Shown here one piece after another: positions 13,171-59,122 of a DNA stretch of 64,000 bases. Both the position numbers and the translations under genes were made by a program. Under the pieces are notes generated by a model. That model was not told where the DNA came from and did not search any database. It saw only the letters and a list, made by a program, of their open reading frames with translations. This DNA is from Histomonas meleagridis. Taxonomy: Eukaryota > Parabasalia > Tritrichomonadida > Dientamoebidae. The stretch spans positions 1,719,501-1,783,500 of the forward strand of contig WSYJ01000186.1 of the NCBI GenBank assembly GCA_020186115.1. The letters are read 5' to 3'. Numbering within the stretch: the stretch's first letter is position 1; the number at the start of each line of letters is the position of its first letter.

Positions 13171-13542
13171 TCAAATCCATTGGTCCTCATCTTCCGTTTT
13201 CAAACTATTAAATTCATCGTTGGCATTTTCGTGATTTCCTTCGGTATTTGATGACATATTATTATTTATATTTGATAACGATTTTGTTTTCGTTGTTTGT
13301 TTCTTATTTCTCTTCAACATAAATACATAACAAAAGAAATTCCTCAATAAAAAATAAAATATTTTATAATTTTGCGCATAAATGAATAATTTCTTCATTT
13401 CCACTTGCAACTGCATATTATATTTGCCTGTATTTTCTATATTGGCACCATTCATAAGTAAATATTTTAAACATTTAACAGAAGAAAAAAATGCTGCATA
13501 ATCGATTAATGTAACATCTTCTTTATTGTTTACTTTACACAT
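13171..13542 (-). pseudogene. Mosaic relic: DUF3447 ankyrin fragment joined to a BspA-type cytoplasmic tail
   Basis: The first ~42 residues (VTLIDYAAFFSSVKCLKYLL) match the ankyrin gene at 55672 (VTLIDYAAYFAAIKCFKHLL). A frameshift after TGKY puts the following matching residues (YAVASGNEEIIHLCA) out of frame. Further on the open frame becomes a hydrophobic stretch (FYFLLRNFFCYVFM), then a basic and Asn/Glu-rich tail ending EDEDQWI. That ending is like the C-termini of three BspA-like proteins in this window (EDEDNWL, EEEDKWI, NEDDKWLF). It lies just downstream of the BspA-like gene at 13842, on the same strand. It is probably a recombination scar, not a working gene. Confidence 0.55.
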
Positions 13543-13841: not shown

Positions 13842-15737
13842 TCACATTTGCTCAATGAATTTCTCTTCTTTGAAGTCATCTGCAAATGGATCTTCTTCAA
13901 TATTTGAGATAGATATTCCTGTTGTGAATGTGTTTGTAGTTTGGTTATTATCATTTTGTTGTTCTGAAACTTCATTTTCATCAATTTCTTCTTTTTTATT
14001 TTTAATTCGTATCAATAATATAATCAGTAATGAAATTATAATAATAATAATAACAATAACACAAACGATTATTATGATAATTGTTGTTTTGTTGTCATTT
14101 GTTTGAAATTCATTGCTATAAATAAATGTAAAGAAGTTCGAATAATAAATATAATAAGTTGAATAAATAATAACTGTGTAATCATAATATATAAATTCTG
14201 TTTCAATATAAACATTCGATGAATTAATTGCAATTAGTGAAAGTGATTTTGTTTGTATTTCATAATAAGTAAATGAATGCGTAAATGATAATGTGATCGT
14301 TAATAGATATGAAAAAGATTTCGTTAAATCATTTTGAAATGATTCAGTAAATGTATTCGATTTTGAATATGTATTACTACGACTGAATGTATTTGACATA
14401 GAATATGTATTACTTTTGCTAAGTGTGTGCGATTGAAAAAATGTATTTGATTGAGAAAATGTATATGATGCTGAAAATGAAAGTGTTGGAATTGGTTTGC
14501 AATTTCCTTCTGCATATGATTTGATAACTTTTAATGATCCAAAGTTACTTCCTATATATGTTGGATATGTTATAACTGTTGCTGTAACATTATAAAATGC
14601 ATTTGCTCCAATATTTGGTTCTGTATCACCATAATAATAAATACATTCAAGTGCATTACAATTACCAAATGCTGAACCTCCAATTTCTTTTATTCCATAC
14701 CCAAGTGTTAATATAATTAAATTAGAACATAATGAAAATGCTGAAACACCAATCGATGTGACTGAATTCGGTATTGTAATGTTTTTGATTGATGAACATA
14801 ATGAAAACGCTGATTCACCAATTGTTGTAACATTTCCTCCAAAAATAATCGTTTCTAAATGTGAACATAATGAAAATGCTGAACCACCAATATCTAATAT
14901 AGAATTACCAAAATTAACTGAAATAACTAACGGCCATCCTGAAAATGCACCACTTGGAATGGTATAAATTCCTTCACGAATATTTATAAATTTCGTGATG
15001 CTTTTATATTGTTCAATTTCAGTAAAATCACTTGAGTTTGTTATTGTTAATGTTAAATTATTATCATAAAATAATTGAAAAGAATTTATGAAAAATACAA
15101 CAAAAATTATAACATTTTTATGTTTTTTCTTTTCGCATGTTTTCAATTTGTAGTTGGTCAAAAAAAAATTATGTGGAAACAGTGGTTTTTTCTGAAAAAA
15201 ATTGATATAAACCACCACAATCATCATTGAAAAAATAGCGGTTAAATGAGCATAAACATTGAATTTAAATGGTCGGTCTGTTTTATCGTTTTGCATCAAT
15301 GGAAAACAAAGAAATTCAAACTGGTTTAAAGACATATCCCCATAATGCATATTCAAAGGTTGTGTTGATATATTGTTTTCAATAGGCATACTAGCTATAA
15401 AGAACTCATTTTGTGTAATTGTAAAATATGATGCAAGGAATTTTATTTTGTCATAAAAGAACTGAAGTATTTCTGATGTACACTTGCTGTCAGTCAAGAA
15501 ATTTGAAAATATACTTGTTTTAAAGAAAGTAGAATTAATGTTAAATATATCAAAATTCGCATGCTTAATTCCAAAGACTGGAACTTCTACATTGTATGTA
15601 TGAGTGGGCCTTTCTTTGCTTAGGATCTTTTTCATATTTGATATTTTTGTAGTTGTAAAAAATGGAATTCCTGGTATTGTATCGGATGTAAATTGCTTTA
15701 TTATGCCTGAAATGAACAGCAAACGAAGAATTTTCAT
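13842..15737 (-). CDS. BspA-like leucine-rich-repeat surface protein (copy A), mosaic
   Basis: 631 aa. An N-terminal signal peptide (MKILRLLFISGIIKQF) leads into ~160 unrecognised residues, a hydrophobic segment (AIFSMMIVVVYINFF), a basic linker and a second hydrophobic segment (NVIIFVVFFINSF). BspA/TpLRR repeats follow (ESAFSLCSSIKNITIPNSVTS type). Next come a Ser/Thr/Asn stalk of SNTF repeats, a Tyr-rich juxtamembrane block (YYDYTVIIYSTYYIYYSNF), a long Ile-rich membrane helix and a cytosolic tail with DPF. These proteins mediate adhesion and endocytosis at the trichomonad surface. The LRR core shows no difference from copy B over 690 bp. The tail lacks the EDxW ending of the other copies. 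Confidence 0.8.
   Translation of the reverse strand: MKILRLLFISGIIKQFTSDTIPGIPFFTTTKISNMKKILSKERPTHTYNVEVPVFGIKHANFDIFNINSTFFKTSIFSNFLTDSKCTSEILQFFYDKIKFLASYFTITQNEFFIASMPIENNISTQPLNMHYGDMSLNQFEFLCFPLMQNDKTDRPFKFNVYAHLTAIFSMMIVVVYINFFQKKPLFPHNFFLTNYKLKTCEKKKHKNVIIFVVFFINSFQLFYDNNLTLTITNSSDFTEIEQYKSITKFINIREGIYTIPSGAFSGWPLVISVNFGNSILDIGGSAFSLCSHLETIIFGGNVTTIGESAFSLCSSIKNITIPNSVTSIGVSAFSLCSNLIILTLGYGIKEIGGSAFGNCNALECIYYYGDTEPNIGANAFYNVTATVITYPTYIGSNFGSLKVIKSYAEGNCKPIPTLSFSASYTFSQSNTFFQSHTLSKSNTYSMSNTFSRSNTYSKSNTFTESFQNDLTKSFSYLLTITLSFTHSFTYYEIQTKSLSLIAINSSNVYIETEFIYYDYTVIIYSTYYIYYSNFFTFIYSNEFQTNDNKTTIIIIIVCVIVIIIIIISLLIILLIRIKNKKEEIDENEVSEQQNDNNQTTNTFTTGISISNIEEDPFADDFKEEKFIEQM
14461..15150. 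repeat. 690-bp segment also present at 17177-17866 (copy A)
   Basis: I see no mismatch or indel against the second copy; the constant offset is 2716 bp. It covers the LRR core of the BspA-like gene, from the basic linker to the start of the Ser/Thr stalk. Similarity stops abruptly on the N-terminal side and fades on the stalk side. Confidence 0.85.
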
Positions 15738-16605: not shown

Positions 16606-18360
16606 TCACAGCCAATTGTCTTCATCTTCTTTAACAATATCTTCAACTAAAGTATTGACATCTTCCTTTTGATTTAAACTTGATGTAGTTGAATCTTTAA
16701 ATTGTAATGTTGAAGTCGATTTTCCTTTTTTGTTATTATTTTTAATTAAGAATATAACAATTCCAACAATTATTAAAACTAATGCAATTGATCCGCAAAC
16801 AATTCCAATCAATGCATTCATTGTAAGTCCATTCGTATGTAAAATGTTCGTGCGAAACATTGTAATGAAATTTGAATAATAATTGTAATATGTCGAATAC
16901 ATAATAACTGTGTAATCATAATAAAGAAATTCCGTTTCGATATAAGAAAATGTTGAATTAAATATGGATAATGAAAGTGACCTTGTTTGCGTTTCATAAT
17001 ATGTAAATGAATATGCAATTGTCAATGTATACGTTAATGCATATGAAAACGAAAATGTGAAATCGCTTTGAAACGATTGAGTGAATGTATTTGACTGTGA
17101 ATATGTGTTACTACAACTGAATGTATTTGACTGTGAATATGTGTTACTTCGACTGAATGTATTTGATTGAGAATATGTATATGATGCTGAAAATGAAAGT
17201 GTTGGAATTGGTTTGCAATTTCCTTCTGCATATGATTTGATAACTTTTAATGATCCAAAGTTACTTCCTATATATGTTGGATATGTTATAACTGTTGCTG
17301 TAACATTATAAAATGCATTTGCTCCAATATTTGGTTCTGTATCACCATAATAATAAATACATTCAAGTGCATTACAATTACCAAATGCTGAACCTCCAAT
17401 TTCTTTTATTCCATACCCAAGTGTTAATATAATTAAATTAGAACATAATGAAAATGCTGAAACACCAATCGATGTGACTGAATTCGGTATTGTAATGTTT
17501 TTGATTGATGAACATAATGAAAACGCTGATTCACCAATTGTTGTAACATTTCCTCCAAAAATAATCGTTTCTAAATGTGAACATAATGAAAATGCTGAAC
17601 CACCAATATCTAATATAGAATTACCAAAATTAACTGAAATAACTAACGGCCATCCTGAAAATGCACCACTTGGAATGGTATAAATTCCTTCACGAATATT
17701 TATAAATTTCGTGATGCTTTTATATTGTTCAATTTCAGTAAAATCACTTGAGTTTGTTATTGTTAATGTTAAATTATTATCATAAAATAATTGAAAAGAA
17801 TTTATGAAAAATACAACAAAAATTATAACATTTTTATGTTTTTTCTTTTCGCATGTTTTCAATTTGTTAAGTAAAAATTTAATTTCATAACATAAAAAAA
17901 ATCCCAAAATAAAAAAGTAACGCATTAGAGTTTGAACATTTTCATTGAATTTGAACATTTTCTTTATGAAACTATTATTCATTGGCATTGCTAAATGTGC
18001 TTTTAATGAAAAATGATTAAGTACTAAAGAAAAGAATTGGAAACAATGTTTAACGTATGAAATAGGTAATTCTAGCAAAGGGGAATGGCACTGACATCTT
18101 CTTGTGCTGATATTAAATGGATTCAATTCATTATCTTTTAGCATAATAAAATTGGTGACTTTGATGGATACATTCTTTTTATTAAGGCATGAGAATGTAA
18201 AGTATGTCTCCCACTTGGATTTTAAAGTAAGGCAAGGGGAGTACTGGTGAGTTTGAGAAATAGATAATTGATCACTAAAAATCTTGGAGCATAAGTTTTT
18301 TGGTGAGGTTTGTAATAAGCAAAAGAAATGTATGGGAAAAACCAAGATGAAATAACACAT
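16606..18360 (-). CDS. BspA-like leucine-rich-repeat surface protein (copy B), mosaic
   Basis: 584 aa from the ATG at 18360; the open frame extends three codons further to a TTG. The signal peptide (MCYFILVFPIHFFCLLQ) is followed by ~130 residues with several Cys, unrelated to copy A. A hydrophobic segment (YFFILGFFLCYEIKFLL) precedes the LRR core shared with copy A. After the shared core come SNTF/SQSN stalk repeats, the Tyr-rich block (YYDYTVIMYSTYYNYYSNF), a membrane helix (ALIGIVCGSIALVLIIVGIVIFLI) and a tail ending KEDEDNWL. Role as for copy A. It is a tandem partner 869 bp from copy A on the same strand. Confidence 0.8.
   Translation of the reverse strand: MCYFILVFPIHFFCLLQTSPKNLCSKIFSDQLSISQTHQYSPCLTLKSKWETYFTFSCLNKKNVSIKVTNFIMLKDNELNPFNISTRRCQCHSPLLELPISYVKHCFQFFSLVLNHFSLKAHLAMPMNNSFIKKMFKFNENVQTLMRYFFILGFFLCYEIKFLLNKLKTCEKKKHKNVIIFVVFFINSFQLFYDNNLTLTITNSSDFTEIEQYKSITKFINIREGIYTIPSGAFSGWPLVISVNFGNSILDIGGSAFSLCSHLETIIFGGNVTTIGESAFSLCSSIKNITIPNSVTSIGVSAFSLCSNLIILTLGYGIKEIGGSAFGNCNALECIYYYGDTEPNIGANAFYNVTATVITYPTYIGSNFGSLKVIKSYAEGNCKPIPTLSFSASYTYSQSNTFSRSNTYSQSNTFSCSNTYSQSNTFTQSFQSDFTFSFSYALTYTLTIAYSFTYYETQTRSLSLSIFNSTFSYIETEFLYYDYTVIMYSTYYNYYSNFITMFRTNILHTNGLTMNALIGIVCGSIALVLIIVGIVIFLIKNNNKKGKSTSTLQFKDSTTSSLNQKEDVNTLVEDIVKEDEDNWL
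17177..17866. repeat. 690-bp segment also present at 14461-15150 (copy B)
   Basis: Partner of the copy in gene A, with no difference found by eye. It is bounded sharply at the linker codons on the N-terminal side. Confidence 0.85.
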
Positions 18361-19294: not shown

Positions 19295-19867
19295 TTACCA
19301 ATAACGGCGGCCATATTGGAAGCTCATGTATTGGATTCCTGTTGTCTTAACAACATCACCTGAGTGTGGTGCATGGATGCAGTTTCCAGAGCCGACATAG
19401 ATACCAACATGGGAAACTGGGCTGTAGAAGCAGCAGACATCACCTGGCAAAAGGTTAGCTTGTGTAACTTTTGTACCACTTTGTGATTGAGCACTTGCGG
19501 TTCTTGGGATTGAGATACCAACTTGAGCATGGCACCATTGTGTTAAACCAGAGCAGTCGAATGTGTTTGGACCAGCTGCACCATAAACATATGAGCATCC
19601 AAGCTTGGATTTAGCATAAGAAACGATTGTATCACCAACTGAGTTTGAGGATTGAGCAACTTTTACGAATTGAGCACGGACATATGCATCATGGCCACGG
19701 AGATCGATTTTGATCCATTGTGAAGTTTGTTCCTTGATTGTAACCTTTGTTCCTTTAACGAGAAGAGCGATTGGCCTTGGGAACTTTGTTGATTTGAAGA
19801 CAGGGGCATTCTTTGTGATAACACCAGTAAGTGTTGCACTGCAAGCAGCAAGAAGGAAGCTTAACAT
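19295..19867 (-). CDS. NlpC/P60 family peptidoglycan hydrolase
   Basis: 190 aa. A signal peptide (MLSFLLAACSA) is followed by a bacterial-type SH3 domain (residues ~15-70) and an NlpC/P60 catalytic domain with Cys105 in DCSG, His153 in SHVGIYVG and His165 in CIHAP. The family cuts D-glutamyl-meso-DAP bonds in bacterial peptidoglycan. Trichomonads are known to have gained NlpC/P60 genes from bacteria and to use them against bacteria. All catalytic residues are present and the length suits a secreted two-domain enzyme. The N-terminal Cys9 could suggest a lipobox remnant, but this is weak. Confidence in function is high. Confidence 0.92.
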   Translation of the reverse strand: MLSFLLAACSATLTGVITKNAPVFKSTKFPRPIALLVKGTKVTIKEQTSQWIKIDLRGHDAYVRAQFVKVAQSSNSVGDTIVSYAKSKLGCSYVYGAAGPNTFDCSGLTQWCHAQVGISIPRTASAQSQSGTKVTQANLLPGDVCCFYSPVSHVGIYVGSGNCIHAPHSGDVVKTTGIQYMSFQYGRRYW

Positions 19868-37949: not shown

Positions 37950-40220
37950 ATGTTAGTTTTACAATTATTTCTATCATTTTTGGTATTAAAACACTCCAAG
38001 CTTCAGTATGATTTATATATTCCAGAAGTAAATATGATTAAAAGAAATGATATTTATTACAACGAAAGAATCTCAAAAAACAATTTCATAAATAATGCAG
38101 ATAAAATGCACTATATCTTCTCTCGATATAAAGCTTATCATGAAAACTTAACAAACAAAATATGTGATCGTTTTTTCAATAGAAAATTAGTAAATGATCA
38201 TAATTTACAGGTAGAACAATTTGTTTTGACAAGTAATCAGATTTCTTTTCCTCAATTACAACAAACATGTCCTCCATTTTCAGAAAATAAATACTTTTTC
38301 GTCATCGTTAAAATAATGTTGGTTTTTATCATTTATAAAATTTTATCAAGACAAAGATGGAATTATTCATTTAATATTATTGACGATAATAAAAATAAAT
38401 TAAATAATTCATTTTCAAATTTTATATTTATATATAATTTATTTTCTACTTCATTAGAACTTGAATCTTTATATATTAAAGATACAACAGATTTTTATAC
38501 AAATCGAAAAAATAGTGCCAATATTGTAATAATCACCGGGTCAGTCACAGAAATACCAGAAAAAATTTTTATGTACTGTCCAGTAATGAGTGTTGAGATC
38601 AAATCTTCTGTCACTACGATAGGAAATAATGCTTTTTCATTATGTAGAAATTTGATTGTTGTTCAACTGAATGCAGGACTAAAAAGCATTGGAAACGGTG
38701 CATTTTCACACTGTACCAATTTAAAGTCAATCACAATTCCAAGTTCAGTGACGTCACTTGGACAAAGTATTTTTTCTTATAGTGGACTTGAAAATATAAA
38801 AATTGAAGAAGGTGTAAATATGATTTCATATTTTATGTTCGATAGTTGTGATATTACAAATATAAATATTCCTAATTCTATTACATTAATAGAAGATAAT
38901 CCTTTTGTCAGGTGCCAGAGTCTTCAGACAATTACAGTATCTAATGACAATTCGCACTTTTCTAATTATAATGGCGATGGAGTTCTTTATGATAAAGGAA
39001 TCACGAGACTTATTAGTTATCCAATTGGTAACACAAGAAGTGAATATGTAGTTCCAAACTCAGTAACAAAAATTGAACATGCAACATTCCATTTCACAAG
39101 TTTAACATCAATTATAATTGGTGAAGGAGTAAAGACAATTGGACCTTCCGCATTTGATAATTTGAAAAAAATTACAAATATAATAATCCCAAATTCAGTT
39201 AATGTTCTTCAATCGAGAGCTTTTACAACTTGCTACAAATTAACTACAATTAGAATTGGTGCAAATGTTCAATCAATTGAAAGTGGTGTATTTGAAGATT
39301 GCACTGATCTTAAATGTATTTATTTTTATGGAGAAAGTCGTCCTTCATTTGGCGATAATGTTTTTAATAATGTTCCGTCAGTTTCTGTTATGACATATAA
39401 CACATATCAAAGCGATGATTTCGGAGGACTTCCTGTTTTGAAAGGAATTCCATATAACGATTGTCCTTTCATACCAACATATATATTCACACCAACTAAT
39501 ACATATCCATTTACACCATCTAATGGTTTTACCTCTTCAAATATATTTACTCCATCTAATGGTTTTACTCATTCTAATACATTTACTGCTTCAAATACAT
39601 TCACTCAATCAAACACATTTTCAGATACATTCACACAGTCAAATTTATTCACGCAATCGAACACATTTACAGAATCAAATTCGTTTACACAATCAAATAC
39701 ATTTACAAATACATTCACAAAGACAAATATATTCACGCAATCAAACACATTTACACAATCGAATACATTGTCGAATACATTTACATTATCAAACTCATTT
39801 TCACAATCATACACATTCACATCATCAAATTCTTTCACTCAATCTGATTCATATACAAAATCAAACTCATTTTCAAATGCAATTACTCAAACATTTCAAA
39901 TGCCTGTTACACATTCCCATACTTTTGTTCTTACATATTCATTGCTTATTACTGAGACGATAATTAGCAAATTGCATATTATAAATACAGTTTCATATAT
40001 AAAAATTGGATCAGGTTTTGATTATATTACCACTGATATTGTTTATTATGATTATGAATTGCATCAATATTCAACTTATTATATTTATTATTCTGATTTC
40101 TATACACTCATCCAACAAAATACATATGAAAACTCAAAAATTTCAAAAAATGCTTTGATCGGAATTGTTTGTGGTTCGGTTGCAATTGTTCTTTGGAATT
40201 GGAATTTTTATGTATCGTAA
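37950..40220 (+). CDS. BspA-like leucine-rich-repeat surface protein, frameshifted at the membrane anchor
   Basis: 756 aa in the open frame. Signal peptide (MLVLQLFLSFLVLKH), ~100 lumenal residues, a hydrophobic segment (FFVIVKIMLVFIIYKIL), then BspA/TpLRR repeats (NNAFSLCRNLIVVQLNAG type) to residue ~510. A Ser/Thr stalk follows with about 25 TFTQSN-like hexapeptides at ~39480-39900, then the Tyr-rich block (YYDYELHQYSTYYIYYSDFY). The membrane helix begins ALIGIVCGSVAIVL and then shifts frame near 40192, ending in WNWNFYVS. The correct continuation (GIGIFMYRKS to NEDDKWLF at 40356) is intact in another frame. Either a recent mutation or a sequence error removes the tail. Confidence 0.8.
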   Translation: MLVLQLFLSFLVLKHSKLQYDLYIPEVNMIKRNDIYYNERISKNNFINNADKMHYIFSRYKAYHENLTNKICDRFFNRKLVNDHNLQVEQFVLTSNQISFPQLQQTCPPFSENKYFFVIVKIMLVFIIYKILSRQRWNYSFNIIDDNKNKLNNSFSNFIFIYNLFSTSLELESLYIKDTTDFYTNRKNSANIVIITGSVTEIPEKIFMYCPVMSVEIKSSVTTIGNNAFSLCRNLIVVQLNAGLKSIGNGAFSHCTNLKSITIPSSVTSLGQSIFSYSGLENIKIEEGVNMISYFMFDSCDITNINIPNSITLIEDNPFVRCQSLQTITVSNDNSHFSNYNGDGVLYDKGITRLISYPIGNTRSEYVVPNSVTKIEHATFHFTSLTSIIIGEGVKTIGPSAFDNLKKITNIIIPNSVNVLQSRAFTTCYKLTTIRIGANVQSIESGVFEDCTDLKCIYFYGESRPSFGDNVFNNVPSVSVMTYNTYQSDDFGGLPVLKGIPYNDCPFIPTYIFTPTNTYPFTPSNGFTSSNIFTPSNGFTHSNTFTASNTFTQSNTFSDTFTQSNLFTQSNTFTESNSFTQSNTFTNTFTKTNIFTQSNTFTQSNTLSNTFTLSNSFSQSYTFTSSNSFTQSDSYTKSNSFSNAITQTFQMPVTHSHTFVLTYSLLITETIISKLHIINTVSYIKIGSGFDYITTDIVYYDYELHQYSTYYIYYSDFYTLIQQNTYENSKISKNALIGIVCGSVAIVLWNWNFYVS

Positions 40221-43397: not shown

Positions 43398-43781
43398 ATG
43401 ATTATATGGAATTGTGTCGCATTTTTATTCCTTTGTTTCTTTCTGTTTGACTCAATTACTAGTGGTTGGATTCCAGACATTTCTGTTTATTGCTCTCCTT
43501 TCGATTTCGTTTTTATTGGCTTAAAGCCTAATTTGAGAGATCTCTGTAAATGTGGTGAATCTAAAGTTCCGATTCACACAGAAAAAGGAACAGAATCATT
43601 GAATAATATAGGCTTTTTTGGTTATGATAAATGCCTTTATAAAATCAAATACAACATGGACTCAGTTTTCGAACTGACTGTTAAAGTTCGAAAAAAAAGT
43701 TTCTATGTTCATGTGAAATGTTTAACAAAAACAAGTAAAATTATTTTAATAATTGATTTCTTTTATTTAACAGAATATTAA
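43398..43781 (+). CDS. Small secreted or membrane protein, hypothetical
   Basis: 127 aa. A clear signal peptide (CVAFLFLCFFLFDSITSG) is followed by ~85 residues with five Cys (VYCSPFDF, LCKCGE, DKCLYK, VKCLTK) and a second hydrophobic stretch near the end (KIILIIDFFYL). Not recognised. Its stop overlaps the stop of the convergent ubiquitin-like gene by four bases. It could be a truncated remnant of a larger surface protein, because the end is abrupt. Confidence 0.4.
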   Translation: MIIWNCVAFLFLCFFLFDSITSGWIPDISVYCSPFDFVFIGLKPNLRDLCKCGESKVPIHTEKGTESLNNIGFFGYDKCLYKIKYNMDSVFELTVKVRKKSFYVHVKCLTKTSKIILIIDFFYLTEY

Positions 43782-44899
43782 ATATCATAGAGAATTGAAC
43801 CTCCCCACTCCACTACAGTATAACCATTACGTTCTTTATGTAAATTTTCTAAGTTTTGAAGTGGTAATTCCTCAACCTTATCACCTCTTAAATTTTTCAT
43901 AATCATAAATACTCTAATAATACAATCAGGTTTTGGTGTAATTTCAAGTTGTGCAACATTTTCATATTCTTCACTTAAAAATTTAATCATAGTATAATTA
44001 CTTCTTTGGATTTGAGGCAACCAAAACTGAATAAAACTTGTTAATTCTTTTCCACGAAGTCCTAAATAATATAATTTGTCTTCTAAGAATTTTTCGGCAT
44101 TTTCTTTTGTTACAATAAAACCTTCATTAAAGTCAAATTCATTATCATTAAATAAACATTCCCAAAACAAACTATCATATTCAATTGAATTTGGATCGTC
44201 TTTGTTAACCATAATCCCATTTTCATTTACGTTAACATTCCAACCTTTGTCAACATTGTATTTAGGATATGTACAAGTAAAATCACCTTTTATATTAACT
44301 TTTACATTTACATCCATTTTTTCTTTAGGATATATATAAATTACTGGCTTCCCGCCTCTAAGTCTAAGAATTAATAGTAATTTAGTACCAGAAACTATAT
44401 TTTGTTCTCCAATTTTTTGATCATCTTCTAATTGACGGTGATGAAAAATAATTCTTTGTTGATCAGTTGGTATTCCTTCCCTAATAGTTATTTCGTGTTT
44501 TATCTTTAATATTGTATCATCGGAACATACATTGAATTTCATTTCTTTTCCTGTTAAAGTATGTATTATTATTGGAAAAGAATTTTTAACTAATGAAGAA
44601 TCAGATTTAAATTTTAAATAAATATGATCCCTTGGATCAATACACCCCATTAGATCATAATCCTCCATTTTATCCGCTAAATAGAGAACTTGTTCTTTTA
44701 TAGGAACATGCTCTTTTTGAAATATTTTTTCTTTTAAATTGTATATAGTTTCAGTAAGAGACATATTTATATCAAATATTTTGTTTCTTGATGTAAAGAT
44801 TTTATATGGTAATTTTTCATTGAGATTTGTAGCCAAATATATATCCATATAACATACAAGATTCGGATTATATACTATATATGGAAGAAAATCATCCAT
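43778..44899 (-). CDS. Ubiquitin-like repeats fused to a bacterial-type C-terminal domain (3' part of a split gene)
   Basis: 373 aa as read from the ATG at 44899. Residues ~40-95 form one ubiquitin-like unit (SLTETIYNLKEKIFQKEHVP ... YLADKMEDYDLMG). Residues ~107-183 form a unit close to real ubiquitin (IIHTLTGKEMKFNV, GIPTDQQRIIFHHRQLEDD, LILRLRGG). Directly after RGG begins a ~190-residue domain (KPVIYIYPKEKMDVNV to FTCTYPKYNVDKGWNV to VEWGG) that I recall from uncharacterised bacterial proteins. The Gly-Gly junction could be cut by a deubiquitinase. Evidence that this is not an independent gene: changing an A11 run to A10 at 44943-44953 joins it in frame to the gene at 44931-45701. Confidence 0.8.
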   Translation of the reverse strand: MDDFLPYIVYNPNLVCYMDIYLATNLNEKLPYKIFTSRNKIFDINMSLTETIYNLKEKIFQKEHVPIKEQVLYLADKMEDYDLMGCIDPRDHIYLKFKSDSSLVKNSFPIIIHTLTGKEMKFNVCSDDTILKIKHEITIREGIPTDQQRIIFHHRQLEDDQKIGEQNIVSGTKLLLILRLRGGKPVIYIYPKEKMDVNVKVNIKGDFTCTYPKYNVDKGWNVNVNENGIMVNKDDPNSIEYDSLFWECLFNDNEFDFNEGFIVTKENAEKFLEDKLYYLGLRGKELTSFIQFWLPQIQRSNYTMIKFLSEEYENVAQLEITPKPDCIIRVFMIMKNLRGDKVEELPLQNLENLHKERNGYTVVEWGGSILYDI

Positions 44900-48235: not shown

Positions 48236-50245
48236 TCATATCCATTTATCTTCTTCCTCATGAATCAGAATATCAATAACTTCTGTAGGTTTTTCAATCA
48301 AAATATCTTTATTTTCAGTCAGCGATGAACTTGAATATTGTAATGTACTTGATTTATAAGTTTTATGACGAAAAACTCCAATGACAATTCCTGCTATAAG
48401 TAAAACTACTGCAACCGATCCACATATAATGCCAATTAAGAAAATTCGATTAACATCATTATTTTGATTATTATCTTCCAATCTATCATAATATATATAG
48501 AAGTTGGAATAAATTTTAATATATGTGGAATATAAAATAAATGAATATTCGTAATAAATGTAATATGTATTCAGCTGTGTAAATTCTGATTTTATATAAG
48601 ATAAAATAAATGTTTGTGAAAGATATGACTTTATAACGGATAATGATTTTGTAAATGATAAAATATTTGTTAATATATATGAATGTGAATATGTAATATC
48701 TGAATTATTTGTTATTAAATCAGAATTTTTTATCCAATTTGTATTTGAGCTTATTATTTTACTTGTTGCAATTTCAATTTGTGTTAATGAAATATATGTC
48801 AAAATTGTATTCGAATTAGATAACGTAAGTGAATTTGTAATTGACAATATATTTGATAATGTGTATGTAACTGTTATAGTTAATGAGGTTGTATTCAATA
48901 ATGATGGTGATGATGTTGTTGAATTTATTAGAGTTTGAGTTTCTGAAATTGTTTGTTGTTCTATATTTATCATAACATTTGATAAAGATTGCGTATTTGA
49001 TAATGTTAATGTTTGGGTTGATGCAATTGAATTAGTGATAATAATTGTTTGTGAAGAGTATTTTGTATATGATTTTGTATATGTTGGTGATAATGTAACG
49101 GATATCGTTTTTGATAGTGAATTCGTTGGTGATATTGTTACTGACGAAACATGTGTCTGTGATGATGTAATTGAATTGGTTTGCGTTAATGTTAAAGAAG
49201 GAACTAATGTAGATATATTTGATAAGATTGATATCTGCCATAATGAAGGCACAATTATTTGTGATTGAGTGGTTTGACCATTAACTAATACATATGTAAA
49301 TGAATTACTAAAACCATCTAAATATTTAAAAACTATAGTTACTGTTTGAGTGGGAACATATGTTTTATCAGATGTACTAACTTTCATATTAGATTGAGTT
49401 AAAGATATAGATGCTGTTGTCGAGGTTATAAATGAAGTTTTTAGTGTATTAGTTATTGTATTACTAGATATATGTGTAAGTGATGAAGTATTTATATTAA
49501 TAATAGTATTTGTAGTAAAAGAATATGTTGTATTAAATGACGTTGATAATAATGATTGCGTATCACTGTTAACATAAGTATTCGATTTATAATTTGTAAG
49601 GGAAGGTGAAAGTGTTATTGATGGAGAATATGTATGAATATTTGAAATAAGAGTTGTATATGTAAATGAGTTTGCTATACTTCGCGTTAATGAAGGTGAT
49701 AAAACATAAGAATATGTATTTAATGTAACGTTGGATATAACAAATGTATTTACTTTAGTAGATACATTTAAATTTGATTGTGAATAGACTAATTCGTTAA
49801 TTTTCTTCTTGGTGTTTAATTTTATATCTGGATCTAATTTAGAACAATTTGAAAAAGACTCGAATCCAAAATTTTCAATTTTATCAAAAGTTACTTTTGT
49901 TAATTGTGGACATGACGAAAATGCATAATCTCCAACAGAATGAATTGCCAATTTAATGATAACACTATGCAAATTCGAACAAAATGAAAAAGCATGCGAA
50001 CCTATTTTTTCAACATTTGAAAGATGAACTTCATATAATGAATCCCAATGTGAGAATTCATAGCTTTTAATATTTCTAATATTATTTTCAATAAAAAGAT
50101 ATTCAGATAGATTTTGATACTGCCATATATCCATATTTTCTCCCGTCACTCTAAGTGTCCTATTCTTCGTTATGAATATGGTTTGGCCTGTAATTTGTAG
50201 AAAGATCGTGAAAATGATAGAATATTTTAATAACAATTTCATCAT
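48236..50245 (-). CDS. BspA-like surface protein with very long Ser/Thr stalk
   Basis: 669 aa. The signal peptide (MMKLLLKYSIIFTIFLQITG) is followed by only about four LRR units (GSHAFSFCSNLHSVII, GDYAFSSCPQLTKVTF, residues ~65-150) and a ~400-residue stalk almost wholly of Ser, Thr, Asn, Ile, Leu and Tyr. Then come a Tyr-rich block (TYYIYYEYSFILYSTYIKIYSNFY), a membrane helix (FLIGIICGSVAVVLLIAGIVIGVF) and a tail ending HEEEDKWI. The stalk probably is heavily O-glycosylated. Compared with the other copies the LRR part is reduced and the stalk expanded. It would be at the cell surface. Confidence 0.75.
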   Translation of the reverse strand: MMKLLLKYSIIFTIFLQITGQTIFITKNRTLRVTGENMDIWQYQNLSEYLFIENNIRNIKSYEFSHWDSLYEVHLSNVEKIGSHAFSFCSNLHSVIIKLAIHSVGDYAFSSCPQLTKVTFDKIENFGFESFSNCSKLDPDIKLNTKKKINELVYSQSNLNVSTKVNTFVISNVTLNTYSYVLSPSLTRSIANSFTYTTLISNIHTYSPSITLSPSLTNYKSNTYVNSDTQSLLSTSFNTTYSFTTNTIININTSSLTHISSNTITNTLKTSFITSTTASISLTQSNMKVSTSDKTYVPTQTVTIVFKYLDGFSNSFTYVLVNGQTTQSQIIVPSLWQISILSNISTLVPSLTLTQTNSITSSQTHVSSVTISPTNSLSKTISVTLSPTYTKSYTKYSSQTIIITNSIASTQTLTLSNTQSLSNVMINIEQQTISETQTLINSTTSSPSLLNTTSLTITVTYTLSNILSITNSLTLSNSNTILTYISLTQIEIATSKIISSNTNWIKNSDLITNNSDITYSHSYILTNILSFTKSLSVIKSYLSQTFILSYIKSEFTQLNTYYIYYEYSFILYSTYIKIYSNFYIYYDRLEDNNQNNDVNRIFLIGIICGSVAVVLLIAGIVIGVFRHKTYKSSTLQYSSSSLTENKDILIEKPTEVIDILIHEEEDKWI

Positions 50246-55671: not shown

Positions 55672-56925
55672 ATGAACTTTGGTGCAAGAAGTGCAACGAA
55701 TTTTAAAAATAGCGAAATGGAAAATACTAAAACTCAATGCAATAGCATGAAATTATTAAATAAACTCGAAAAAATAATTTTCAATATTAATGATGAAAAT
55801 CTCGACTTAAAAGTTCAAGAAACAATGAGCTTATTCGATGTTCACACCTCATATTCATTCAATTATGTTATATCTGTTTTAGTTTACGCTTCATTTTTTT
55901 CTCAGAAAAATTTAAGTGAAATATTCTTGAGATACATTAAGTCAATTCAGTCCAAAGAAATATCAATTAAAAGCAATTCAAAAATCGTAAATGTTTTTAG
56001 TAATTACATTTCCGAGCTTGAAGAACAAGAAGCATATTATCTTCTTGAGAAATTGGTTGAACAAAATTTAATAAATACAAATATCATCAAAAACATTCAT
56101 TCGAAATATTTTGGCCAATATAAAACAGATAAAGAAAACAAAACCAAATATTTTAATGACATAATTGAGAAAATGTTCATTCAAAATTATGAAGAACTTA
56201 AAAAGAATAATTTTGCACTTCATAAGCAATTAATAAAAGGAGGCGTTAATCCTAATGAAATTGTAAAAATCATTCGAAATGATGACATCGAGAAACTTCA
56301 AGAAATATCATCACAACAAAACTTTGATTCTAACCAGAAAATTGAGCCATCGCTTTATGAAAGATGTTCATTCATTAACAAAGAGAATGTTACATTAATT
56401 GATTACGCAGCATATTTTGCAGCAATAAAATGTTTTAAACATTTGTTACTGAATGGTGCAAATGTAAGGAAAACAGGTAAATATGCAATTGCAGGTGGTA
56501 ACCAAGAGATCATTCATTTATGTGAACAAAATCATTCGACATTTGAAGATGGCTATGAAGTCGCAATTAAATATCATTCGAACGAAATCTTTAAATATGT
56601 TTATGATAACAAATTAGAAAAGAAATCGAATTTGAAGCTTAATCAATTAGGTGAAATTTGTATTAAAAATGGAAGTTATGGAATATTTTCATATCTTGAA
56701 AAAGAAGGAATGAAAATCGATAATTCTTTGATTAATGAGTCCGCACGAAATGGAAATATATTTCTAATTAAATATTTCCTTCAAAACAATCAAATGCCAA
56801 AAGACATTTTAGTGTTTTCTGCTGAATCAGGAAACATTGAACTTGTGAAATATATTTTCGAACAAAAAGGAATTGATATTAATTATAACGAAGTTAGTTT
56901 TAATGATTTAATGGTATTCATTTAA
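55672..56925 (+). CDS. DUF3447-type ankyrin protein, first exon or N-terminal part
   Basis: 418 aa. The N-terminal ~190 residues are helical (LLNKLEKIIFNINDENLDLK) as in trichomonad DUF3447 proteins. Ankyrin-like units follow (NVTLIDYAAYFAAIKCFKHL, AGGNQEIIHLCEQNHSTFED, SARNGNIFLIKYFLQNNQMP, SAESGNIELVKYIFEQKGID). The frame then ends in a short stop-containing spacer at 56893-56935. The next ankyrin unit starts at once after it, and ten such units run on to 58762. It is probably the first exon of one large gene rather than a whole gene. Relics of the same family are at 13171 and 18605. Confidence 0.75.
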   Translation: MNFGARSATNFKNSEMENTKTQCNSMKLLNKLEKIIFNINDENLDLKVQETMSLFDVHTSYSFNYVISVLVYASFFSQKNLSEIFLRYIKSIQSKEISIKSNSKIVNVFSNYISELEEQEAYYLLEKLVEQNLINTNIIKNIHSKYFGQYKTDKENKTKYFNDIIEKMFIQNYEELKKNNFALHKQLIKGGVNPNEIVKIIRNDDIEKLQEISSQQNFDSNQKIEPSLYERCSFINKENVTLIDYAAYFAAIKCFKHLLLNGANVRKTGKYAIAGGNQEIIHLCEQNHSTFEDGYEVAIKYHSNEIFKYVYDNKLEKKSNLKLNQLGEICIKNGSYGIFSYLEKEGMKIDNSLINESARNGNIFLIKYFLQNNQMPKDILVFSAESGNIELVKYIFEQKGIDINYNEVSFNDLMVFI

Positions 56926-56935
56926 TGTATTTAAT

Positions 56936-58378
56936 ACAGTGCTTATTGCAGCAATGAAAAATAATCGAATTGAAATTGTTAAATTACTTCTCGAACAAAA
57001 GGAAATTGATATAAATGCTAAAGTCGTTAATTAAAATGTTTTAATGTTTTATGATAAAATTTGGAATTTGTTTGAATGATTTAAAACTGCTTTAATGATT
57101 GCATCTGAAAATGGTTATATTGAAATGGTCAAATTATTAATCGCACAACAAGACATTGATATTAATACTAAAGATATTAATTTGTTTTTTTATGATGTTT
57201 CTTTTAATAATTTGATGGAATTTGTCGAATGTATTTAATACAGCACTTATTTTGGCATTGAAGAATAATCATTCTGACGTAGTTAAAGTACTTCTTAAAC
57301 ATAAGAAAACTGATGTTAATGCTCAAGATGTATTTTTGTTATGTTTAATGTCTGTTTTAATGATTTAATGGAATTCATTTAAAGTATTTAATCCACCACT
57401 AATGTTAGCATTATTAAATGGTCGTTCTGATATGGTTAAATTACTTTTTGCACATGAGAAAATCGATTTTAATGTAAGAGATGTTTATATGTATTATTTA
57501 ATGTTTATTAAAATGTTTTAATGTTCCAAAATAAGTTTTGGAATTTATTTGACTTTTTCGATACAGCATTAATATTAGCAACATCAAACGCTCGAACAGG
57601 AATGGTTAAGTTACTTCTTGATGAAAAACGAATTGATGTTACTGCTAAAGATATTCTTTTCGAATATTTAAAGAAGCTTTAATATAATATTTGGAATTTG
57701 TTTATAATATTTAATACGGCACTAATGTCAGCATTGAAAAAAGGTCGAACAGAAATTGTTAAATTACTTCTTAAACATGAAGGAATTGATATTAATGCGA
57801 AAGATGTTTAATTTTTTTATTTAATGTTTGTCATAATAATTTGCTGTTATAATATAATATTTGGAATTTGTTTAAAGTATTTAATACAGCACTTATATTG
57901 GCATTAAAGAATGGCCGACATGAAATAGTTAAATTACTTCTTGAACATGAAAAAATTAATATCAATGCGCAAGATAAAATTTCAATTAATTATTTAACGT
58001 TTTATAATAAATTTTGGGGTTTTATCATTTTATAGAATACAATTCTAATATTTGCATCTAGAGATGGTATAACAGAGATAGTGAAATTACTTATTGAACA
58101 AAAAGGTATTAATGTTAATCTTAAAAATGTTTAAATACACTGTATAAAATTTCATTTAATAATTTTATGTTCCAAAATAAAATTTGGAATTTAATTAAAT
58201 GACTTCAAACTGCTCATATGATCGCATGTAAGAATGGTCATACTGATATAGCTAAAATACTTCTTGAACAAGGAGAACTTGATATTAATGCTAAAGATAT
58301 TCATTTGTTTTATTTAATATTCATTTTAATGATTTTGGATTTCATCACAATATTTGGAATATATTTAAATGATTTAGT
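56936..58378 (+). repeat. Array of ankyrin units split by regular non-coding spacers
   Basis: Nine units of exactly 90 nt are each completely open and give 30 residues from T-A-L to N-A-K-D: 56936, 57086, 57240, 57393, 57563, 57716, 57886, 58039 and 58209. They are separated by spacers of 60, 64, 63, 80, 63, 80, 63, 80 and 80 nt, rich in stops, with a shared 3' part TTTGGAATTTGTTTAAA and an end TTTAAT. Adding 3 nt on the left and 6 on the right of each spacer (V/I, F, N) restores a 33-residue ankyrin repeat. The spacers lack the known trichomonad intron ends (GTATGT, ACTAACACACAG). Confidence 0.8.
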
Positions 58379-58762
58379 ACTGCAATCATGAAAGCATCTG
58401 AAAATGGAAACTCCGAAATAGTAAAATTACTTGAGCCTTACTCTCCGATAAAAGAAAAGCCAACGCCAAAGAAGCTGTCGCCAAGGAGAAGTCCAAGAGC
58501 AATCAAAAACAAAGTAAAAGTTGAAATAAGTACGCAAACAGAAAAGAGAAAACCTCAAAAGAAAAACAAAGCAAATAATTCATCACAATATTCACAAAAT
58601 CAATTTGCGCAAAATCAGTTCTATAATGGATTTTACCCATATCCAATGCCAGTATACCCAATGCCATTTTACCAAATCCCAATGTATCCAATGCCTTTCT
58701 GCTGCCCAATGCCGTTTTATCCAATGCCTGCATACCCAATGCCGGTATTCTATCCAATGTAA
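58379..58762 (+). CDS. Last ankyrin unit and C-terminal tail of the ankyrin gene
   Basis: It continues the array with TAIMKASENGNSEIVKLLEP and passes directly into a basic linker (PTPKKLSPRRSPRAIKNKVK, KRKPQKKNKANN) and a tail of about nine YPMP repeats ending PVFYPM. The tail is open to its stop without damage, which argues that the gene is functional. Pro/Met/Tyr-rich tails could mediate binding or phase separation (speculation). An isolated gene start could only be the Met at 58388, which would split an ankyrin unit. Confidence 0.6.
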   Translation, partial: TAIMKASENGNSEIVKLLEPYSPIKEKPTPKKLSPRRSPRAIKNKVKVEISTQTEKRKPQKKNKANNSSQYSQNQFAQNQFYNGFYPYPMPVYPMPFYQIPMYPMPFCCPMPFYPMPAYPMPVFYPM

Positions 58763-59122
58763 TGATGGATTCACTTCAATAAGGAGTTCATTTGTTGATG
58801 AATTATTTGGTGTTTTTCTGGAGAGATATTCGAATAAATTATAAATTGTTAAGTAAATACATTATAATATAAAATATTTATTCATATTTTAAGTTATAAA
58901 GGAAATATTTGAACGTATAATTTTTTTGATTGGAAAATGAGAAAAAGCAAAATGATTTTTTTTTTTTTTTCTTTGATATTTACTTCAATTGAAAGATATT
59001 TATCCCCAAACAAAAATATAGCGATTGATGGTATTATGGGAAATTTAATTCAGCAAATAATAACAAAACATGAACTATTTTTTCTATTGTTACACATAAA
59101 GAACAAATGAAATAATTATTAT
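58763..59122. other. Intergenic, convergent, no gene seen
   Basis: AT-rich with a T16 run near 58956-58971. No feature was recognised. Confidence 0.4.

Follow-up and report, generated by a model that had tools for sequence, protein, structure and literature searches.

How can an ankyrin protein be made from a gene whose reading frame is broken between one repeat and the next? This question is raised by a locus of the parabasalid Histomonas meleagridis, a parasite of poultry, situated in a stretch of 64,000 nucleotides (nt) of contig WSYJ01000186.1 (positions 1,719,501 to 1,783,500, assembly GCA_020186115.1), hereafter called the window. Here, a frame opening at position 55672 is followed by ten ankyrin units that alternate with ten AT-rich spacers. 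A first-pass annotation, made from the letters alone, had ascribed the DNA to a trichomonad, in agreement with its actual host, and had argued that the ankyrin frame is maintained and that the spacers must therefore be removed or skipped. We consider it probable, at about 0.6, that the spacers are unconventional introns of very small size. Their excision from the RNA would join the intact units into one long ankyrin protein.

Parabasalids are taken to be intron-poor, with 63 introns in Trichomonas vaginalis (PMC12316389). Introns are described as scarce in Histomonas as well, numbering 573 in all with a maximum of one per gene, and the word ankyrin does not occur in the main text of that report (PMC8529796). 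A literature search among open-licence PMC papers returned no report naming spacers of the kind described here.

Results

The reading frame is kept open in the units and not in the spacers, as judged by the distribution of stop codons. In a neutral simulation, the unit consensus was mutated under the substitution spectrum taken from the spacers. Units were taken from the genome-wide set described below if the spacer following them was exactly 80 or 63 nt long. None of these 265 units contains a stop, where 122±8 are expected under neutrality, and after removal of units more than 90% alike the count is 0 of 145 (67.5±6 expected). At its own divergence, the window array has stops in 0 of 9 units against a mean of 6.4 of 9, and zero was reached in none of 3000 runs, so that the absence of stops from the window units is indeed beyond chance. 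Units and spacers have diverged equally, both from their consensus (0.152 per site for units and for 80-nt spacers) and between pairs (unit/spacer 0.047/0.051, 0.121/0.121, 0.185/0.184 and 0.255/0.260). The upstream frame of the spacers, which is open in the consensus, carries stops in 143 of 225 cases, and the simulation predicts 146±6.6; this control is partly circular because the rates derive from the same spacers, and it reveals no shortage of stops in them. Among all 399 units, 19 contain stops, of which 13 fall on the 52 units that are terminal in an array or a sequence piece and 6 on the 347 internal ones. Several of the terminal stops resemble natural C-terminal ends (e.g. EIVKLFHKHE before the stop), and some of the six internal units are clearly frameshifted. 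A pseudogene array should have stops accruing in the units at the neutral rate, which is not what these counts show. What is found is a maintained frame interrupted by pieces free of coding constraint, that is, an intron in the broad sense. A frame that stays open in the units and acquires stops in the spacers requires the latter to be removed or skipped, as the first-pass annotation had argued.

The edges of the untranslated piece can be located in the same way. In 260 spacers of 80 nt we counted stops in the codons before the T codon of the next unit (codon -1 being the last) and in those after the D codon of the preceding one (plus codons). Codon -1, in most cases specifying N, K, E, R, W, D, Q or Y, never contains a stop, against 18.9 expected; codon -2 has none either, which is uninformative with 2.1 expected. 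Stops are back at codons -3 (22, 19.5 expected) and -4 (26, 18.9 expected). On the upstream side, codon +1 is ATT or GTT in 223 of the 260 spacers and cannot easily mutate to a stop, and codons +2 and +4 have 19 and 2 stops (19.5 and 2.1 expected). The 42 spacers of 63 nt have two stops at codon -3 and none at codon +2. By these counts the change-over of translation lies no more than one or two codons from the edge of the repeat, and we regard a piece of 71 to 77 nt out of the 80 as untranslated. If the normal 12-nt linker were retained, about 19 to 22 of the 260 spacers would leave a stop in it; with 9 nt retained, none would. The same pattern makes read-through and frameshifting unlikely as a general route.

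The layout of the window array is given in Table 1, with spacer lengths taken between the D codon of a unit and the T codon of the unit after it. The plain open reading frame from 55672 comprises 417 amino acids, extends into spacer 1 and reaches its stop at 56925; it matches the profiles DUF3447 (3.5e-11) and Ank_2 (1.8e-8). All four units tried, out of ten, passed the cut-off of PF00023 (Ank), which identifies the units as ankyrin repeats. Direct reading bore out the ten units first described, nine of them of 90 nt without stop or indel, as well as the undamaged YPMP tail on the tenth. The spacer lengths first given also held for spacers 2 to 10, including the difference modulo 3 between 63 and 80 nt; spacer 1 had been put at 43 nt, a value that differs from our 40 nt only in that its boundary was set one codon earlier.

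Table 1. Features of the spacer-containing ankyrin gene (window positions).
Feature	Position	Strand	Length	Remark
5' coding part (N-terminal domain, DUF3447, ankyrin repeats)	55672..56895	+		ends at last unit before spacer 1
Spacer 1	56896..56935	+	40 nt	read directly
Ankyrin unit 1	56936..57025	+	90 nt	Ank 4.1e-5
Spacer 2	57026..57085	+	60 nt	in-frame TAA
Ankyrin unit 2	57086..57175	+	90 nt	
Spacer 3	57176..57239	+	64 nt	
Ankyrin unit 3	57240..57329	+	90 nt	
Spacer 4	57330..57392	+	63 nt	
Ankyrin unit 4	57393..57482	+	90 nt	
Spacer 5	57483..57562	+	80 nt	
Ankyrin unit 5	57563..57652	+	90 nt	
Spacer 6	57653..57715	+	63 nt	
Ankyrin unit 6	57716..57805	+	90 nt	Ank 1.2e-7
Spacer 7	57806..57885	+	80 nt	both usable frames stopped, no open switch
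Ankyrin unit 7	57886..57975	+	90 nt	Ank 3.8e-7
Spacer 8	57976..58038	+	63 nt	
Ankyrin unit 8	58039..58128	+	90 nt	
Spacer 9	58129..58208	+	80 nt	both usable frames stopped, no open switch
Ankyrin unit 9	58209..58298	+	90 nt	Ank 4.2e-6
Spacer 10	58299..58378	+	80 nt	
Ankyrin unit 10 and basic, YPMP-rich C-terminal tail	58379..58762	+	127 residues in all	stop TAA

Spacers between ankyrin repeats had been described as a case of one gene; the spacers stand, but the single gene does not, since the array belongs to a genome-wide family. In the 43.28-Mb assembly of 121 contigs, the 17-nt spacer motif TTTGGAATTTGTTTAAA occurs with up to two mismatches at 1983 + 1779 = 3,762 sites, compared with 98 + 98 = 196 for the reversed control. 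When the DNA was searched with two of the window repeats, 118 matches including the window were obtained, the others at 65-74% identity and on many contigs. The N-terminal domain is encoded at 101 places (6906 candidates scored), 85 times as a single match and 16 times in two. These 85 domains likely have their frames ending near spacer 1, because the open frames in which they sit span only 369-519 residues. The loci fetched first, 68 in number, were picked by ankyrin profile (8), likeness to the window (30) or motif (30), with several overlapping, and 61 of them contain units of the window type. Initially, 347 spacers were extracted: 225 of 80 nt, 40 of 63, 11 of 66, 10 of 83, 7 of 60 and 6 of 81 nt, with other lengths scattered. 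Frame-breaking length changes are rare among array spacers, and the position in the repeat is constant, before the x of x-T-A/P-L, at about 56 array places among the fetched pieces (counted in 4-kb bins, in which one array may count twice). The extracted units and spacers also support the tandem multiplication of a unit-plus-spacer block envisaged earlier. Elsewhere in the window, positions 13171-13542 of the minus strand hold a fragment (VTLIDYAAFF...LLMNGANIENTGKY) that by eye resembles this N-terminal ankyrin family, apparently a broken copy, in which Ank profile matches are weak only.

The search for other ankyrin genes with the same spacers, suggested in the first-pass annotation, was also successful. 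Ordinary ankyrin genes (D-x-x-G-x-T-P-L-H) with otherwise contiguous repeats hold spacers at the same place in 12 loci (L003, L004, L007, L008, L079, L080, L081, L082, L083, L084, L085 and L089; those of L003, L008, L080 and L082 judged partly by eye). Presence or absence of a spacer is precise in these genes because their other repeats are contiguous. L078, a paralogue of the window gene, has contiguous repeats with 4-residue linkers. After subtraction of the 12-nt linker, the array spacers measure 68 and 51 nt. In 20 loci, contiguous linkers deviate by 0 (28 cases), +3 (17), -3 (2) and +6 (1), and the AT-rich spacers have net lengths of 17, 18, 20, 20, 34, 34, 37, 37, 51, 54, 54, 55, 68, 68, 69, 69 and 71 nt; of these, 68, 68 and 71 belong to the array locus L001, and values of 9 (two) and 96-102 (six), by eye open coding stretches, were left out. 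The net lengths cluster near 17, 34, 51 and 68 nt. With a first profile and L001 excluded, the best period of 17 lengths, among them one in-frame coding insert each from L002 (21) and L078 (30), was 16.9, and 0 of 3000 uniform random sets were as periodic; a set of 23 lengths measured partly by hand, omitting one value (-5 in L078), gave 17.8 (0 of 3000). Individual lengths may err by 3, as repeats have 33 or 34 residues. A length step near 17 nt is thus likely, short of proof, and may reflect either history, in the form of tandem 17-mers, or a constraint. Single frame-breaking spacers of about 17 nt lie between ankyrin repeats at L089 1686 (-), L081 440 (+), L004 1363 and 1938 (-) and in L080, and may represent the smallest introns of the kind considered here.

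The host encodes a spliceosome. Prp8 (PF08083, 5.5e-206) is present in a 2333-residue open frame, U2 was found twice (80.5 and 79.3 bits) with its branch-pairing region GUGUAGUAUCUGUUCU intact, and U6 once (43.7 bits, just missing the gathering score of 44) with ACAGAGA. The two U2 genes (C40:1173955-1174137 and C120:2033147-2033329) apparently specify identical RNAs and differ in their flanks. The splice motifs of trichomonads are rejected as spacer signals: ACTAACACACAG with at most one mismatch is not enriched genome-wide (68/63 versus 63/67 in the control), and the combined pattern GTATGT-N(3-33)-ACTAACACACAG has 0 matches. No TACTAAC-like branch site was met in the spacers, which contain TTTAAA or TTTAAT instead. 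A self-splicing intron is likewise rejected, as no group I or group II Rfam match was obtained at E<=1 in 56700-58800; the sole Rfam match in this region was SNORD107 (E 0.13, below the cut-off). A repeat unrelated to the spacers, ACTAACACATAG, recurs in tandem every ~600-900 bases with few larger gaps at C9:2517-24247 and C84:1707642-1716871.

Relatives of the N-terminal domain were found on short contigs labelled 'ena' (P0001-P0006, P0008-P0014, P0016, P0017, P0019 and P0027-P0029). These contigs likely stem from another organism, because P0001, the one tested, reaches at most 60% identity in the Histomonas genome. Seven of 16 relatives end one residue past a repeat (KDI, KDV, QDI or KGI before the stop) and others deeper in the spacer. 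In P0006 the frame continues through 26 codons of an 80-nt spacer, with 13 of 26 residues as in the Histomonas consensus, and P0028 reads through a 63-nt spacer (16 of 21 residues as in the consensus) into one last ankyrin unit. As the same spacer stands at the same place in another organism, it is likely older than H. meleagridis.

Other genes of the window include four for BspA-type leucine-rich repeat proteins with Ser/Asn/Thr-rich tails (13842-15737, 16606-18360, 37950-40220 and 48236-50245), each a single, spacer-free open frame; the one at 37950-40220 matches LRR_5 at 1.1e-52, and the other three were assigned by eye. The 190-amino-acid protein of 19295-19867 (-) belongs to NlpC/P60 (2.9e-21), a bacterial-type peptidase family in a eukaryote, and has a weak match to a bacterial SH3 domain below the cut-off. 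At 43778-44899 (-), ubiquitin-family domains (5e-24, two stretches) are followed by an extra C-terminal region.

Discussion

Where untranslated pieces interrupt a maintained frame, the likeliest reading is that they are removed from the RNA. Such removal would join the units in one message. A founder element of about 17 nt may have lengthened by 17-nt steps, and the spacers would have spread when the repeats were duplicated. Removal from the RNA without known signals would mean either that the spliceosome tolerates such ends or that another activity acts on them, and the lack of signals beside canonical U2 and U6 RNAs speaks for a much relaxed spliceosomal recognition or for a separate activity. 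We put forward only tentatively, and would not bet on it, that Histomonas and at least one relative possess a separate set of signal-poor introns built of 17-nt modules (~17, 34, 51 and 68 nt), devoid of GT-AG and branch consensus and excised from ankyrin messages by an activity independent of the canonical spliceosome.

Several observations weigh against the view that the spacers are introns. In the 260 array spacers of 80 nt no GT marks the 5' end (position 1 is A in 220, G in 29, T in 9 and C in 2), the 3' end is TTT followed by a stop-free codon instead of AG, and no position is invariant (maximum conservation 0.958). Ends in AG are missing from the window spacers too. The U2 and U6 RNAs are of canonical type. 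There is no common fold either: z ranged from -2.57 to +1.77 for five window spacers and the consensus, only one of which clearly beats its shuffles, and this spread led us to reject a shared fold or end pairing as the removal signal. Codon +3 is short of stops (7, 17.5 expected). Among the 16 'ena' relatives with inspected ends, 15 stop within the first spacer met, which would mean retention of spacer 1 should these contigs be transcripts. Few independent loci underlie the 17-nt step, and a second profile with 15 lengths gave a best period of 18.1 that 88 of 3000 random sets equalled. Amino-acid selection on the units is weak. Nonsynonymous to synonymous changes between units amount to 2.64, 2.57 and 2.34 in three distance classes (3.1 expected) and to 5.0 in the closest class (2.95 expected, 72 changes). 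In terms of relative nonsynonymous and synonymous differences (pN/pS), the ankyrin frame is the lowest of the three within the window (0.65 versus 0.83 and 0.91) and not between contigs (0.88 versus 0.67 and 1.04). The ratio of nonsynonymous to synonymous change, initially proposed as the refuting test, is hence a poor discriminator, as change between units is near neutral and yet stops are absent. Divergence of the units is smallest at the second codon position (0.177, 0.106 and 0.173), but that of the spacers is also uneven modulo 3 (0.123, 0.152 and 0.162).

The spacers might be ordinary U2-type introns, excised by the normal spliceosome at degenerate sites whose AT-rich ends merely look signal-less. 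Prp8, U2 and U6 are at hand for this, the published annotation counts 573 introns at a maximum of one per gene (PMC8529796), and several of the 17-nt spacers outside arrays could be taken, by eye, to begin with GT. We regard it as unlikely all the same, given arrays without GT-AG, canonical branch-pairing and ACAGAGA regions in the U2 and U6 RNAs, and the failure to detect the trichomonad motifs above background. Somewhat greater doubt attaches to the idea that the protein simply ends at spacer 1 and that everything downstream is an untranslated or pseudogenic array homogenised by gene conversion. The 369-519 residues of the 85 N-terminal frames, the early ends of the 15 'ena' relatives and the near-neutral ratio of changes would all be accounted for; the 122 stops expected in the 265 units and missing there, with the spacers as internal control, the concentration of stops in array-terminal units and the intact C-terminal tail would not.

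That the ribosome traverses the spacers in uncut RNA, by -1 frameshifts at sites like T TTA AAT or by bypassing, is improbable in our view. Neither the upstream nor the downstream frame is closed in the 80-nt consensus, a single, freely placed -1 switch gives an open path through 165 of 225 spacers (55 when shuffled), P0028 passes through its spacer, and the stop deficit at codon +3 would fit as well; the switch count is not independent evidence, because the spacers share an open ancestor. Against this, stops in the upstream frame accrue at nearly the neutral rate (143 versus 146), and the same holds in the downstream frame for codons -3 and -4; on these grounds we reject programmed -1 frameshifting, be it single or repeated. 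In addition, no open path leads through six of window spacers 2-10 (as computed for two of the four with 80 nt and judged by eye for the rest), in-frame stops occur in 21 of 40 spacers of 63 nt, and several shifts per protein would be required. A shift every 17 nt gives an open path in no more than 16% of the 260 spacers (3-9% when shuffled), with steps of 13-16 nt reaching 57%. Removal from the DNA, in the manner of internal eliminated sequences and in a second nuclear form outside the sequenced one, would agree with fixed lengths and AT-rich ends devoid of splice signals; it is very improbable, as parabasalids are not known to have a second nuclear form; the analysis covered a single assembly.

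Introns of an unconventional class, our preferred explanation, would have counterparts elsewhere. The nonconventional introns of euglenids have no GT-AG, are removed by an unknown activity and have base-paired ends; the Histomonas spacers resemble them in the first respect and differ in having no shared fold and a single position in the repeat. In mitochondrial byp elements and in the bypass of T4 gene 60, short untranslated pieces also interrupt a frame, but these systems need matched take-off and landing codons, and by eye the window spacers have none in common. Stentor introns keep GT-AG, whereas the lengths of the spacers probably step by about 17 nt. At 15 nt, the introns of Stentor are very short like the spacers (cited in PMC12316389). 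The type A and type B spliceosomal introns of Trichomonas are parabasalid and very short too (down to 23 nt), with extended 5' and 12-nt 3' motifs, 63 per genome and at most one per transcript (PMC12316389); the Histomonas spacers, in contrast, amount to thousands of motifs, many per gene, and lack the Trichomonas motifs. A partial precedent may be seen in the non-canonical introns of Giardia, which are reported from RNA sequencing, have no GT-AG and in some cases reside in genes for ankyrin repeat proteins (PMC10711314). These are GC-rich and stably folded according to the same report, in contrast to the AT-rich spacers of Histomonas, which have no shared fold.

Apart from its outcome in this case, the stop-density method locates the edges of the translated part from a genome sequence by itself. 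Should the spacers indeed be excised from the RNA, a single gene family of Histomonas would contain a very large number of introns, none of them with known signals, and gene models ending at spacer 1 would be truncated. The family would then be a natural system in which introns spread together with a protein repeat and are recognized independently of splice-site sequence.

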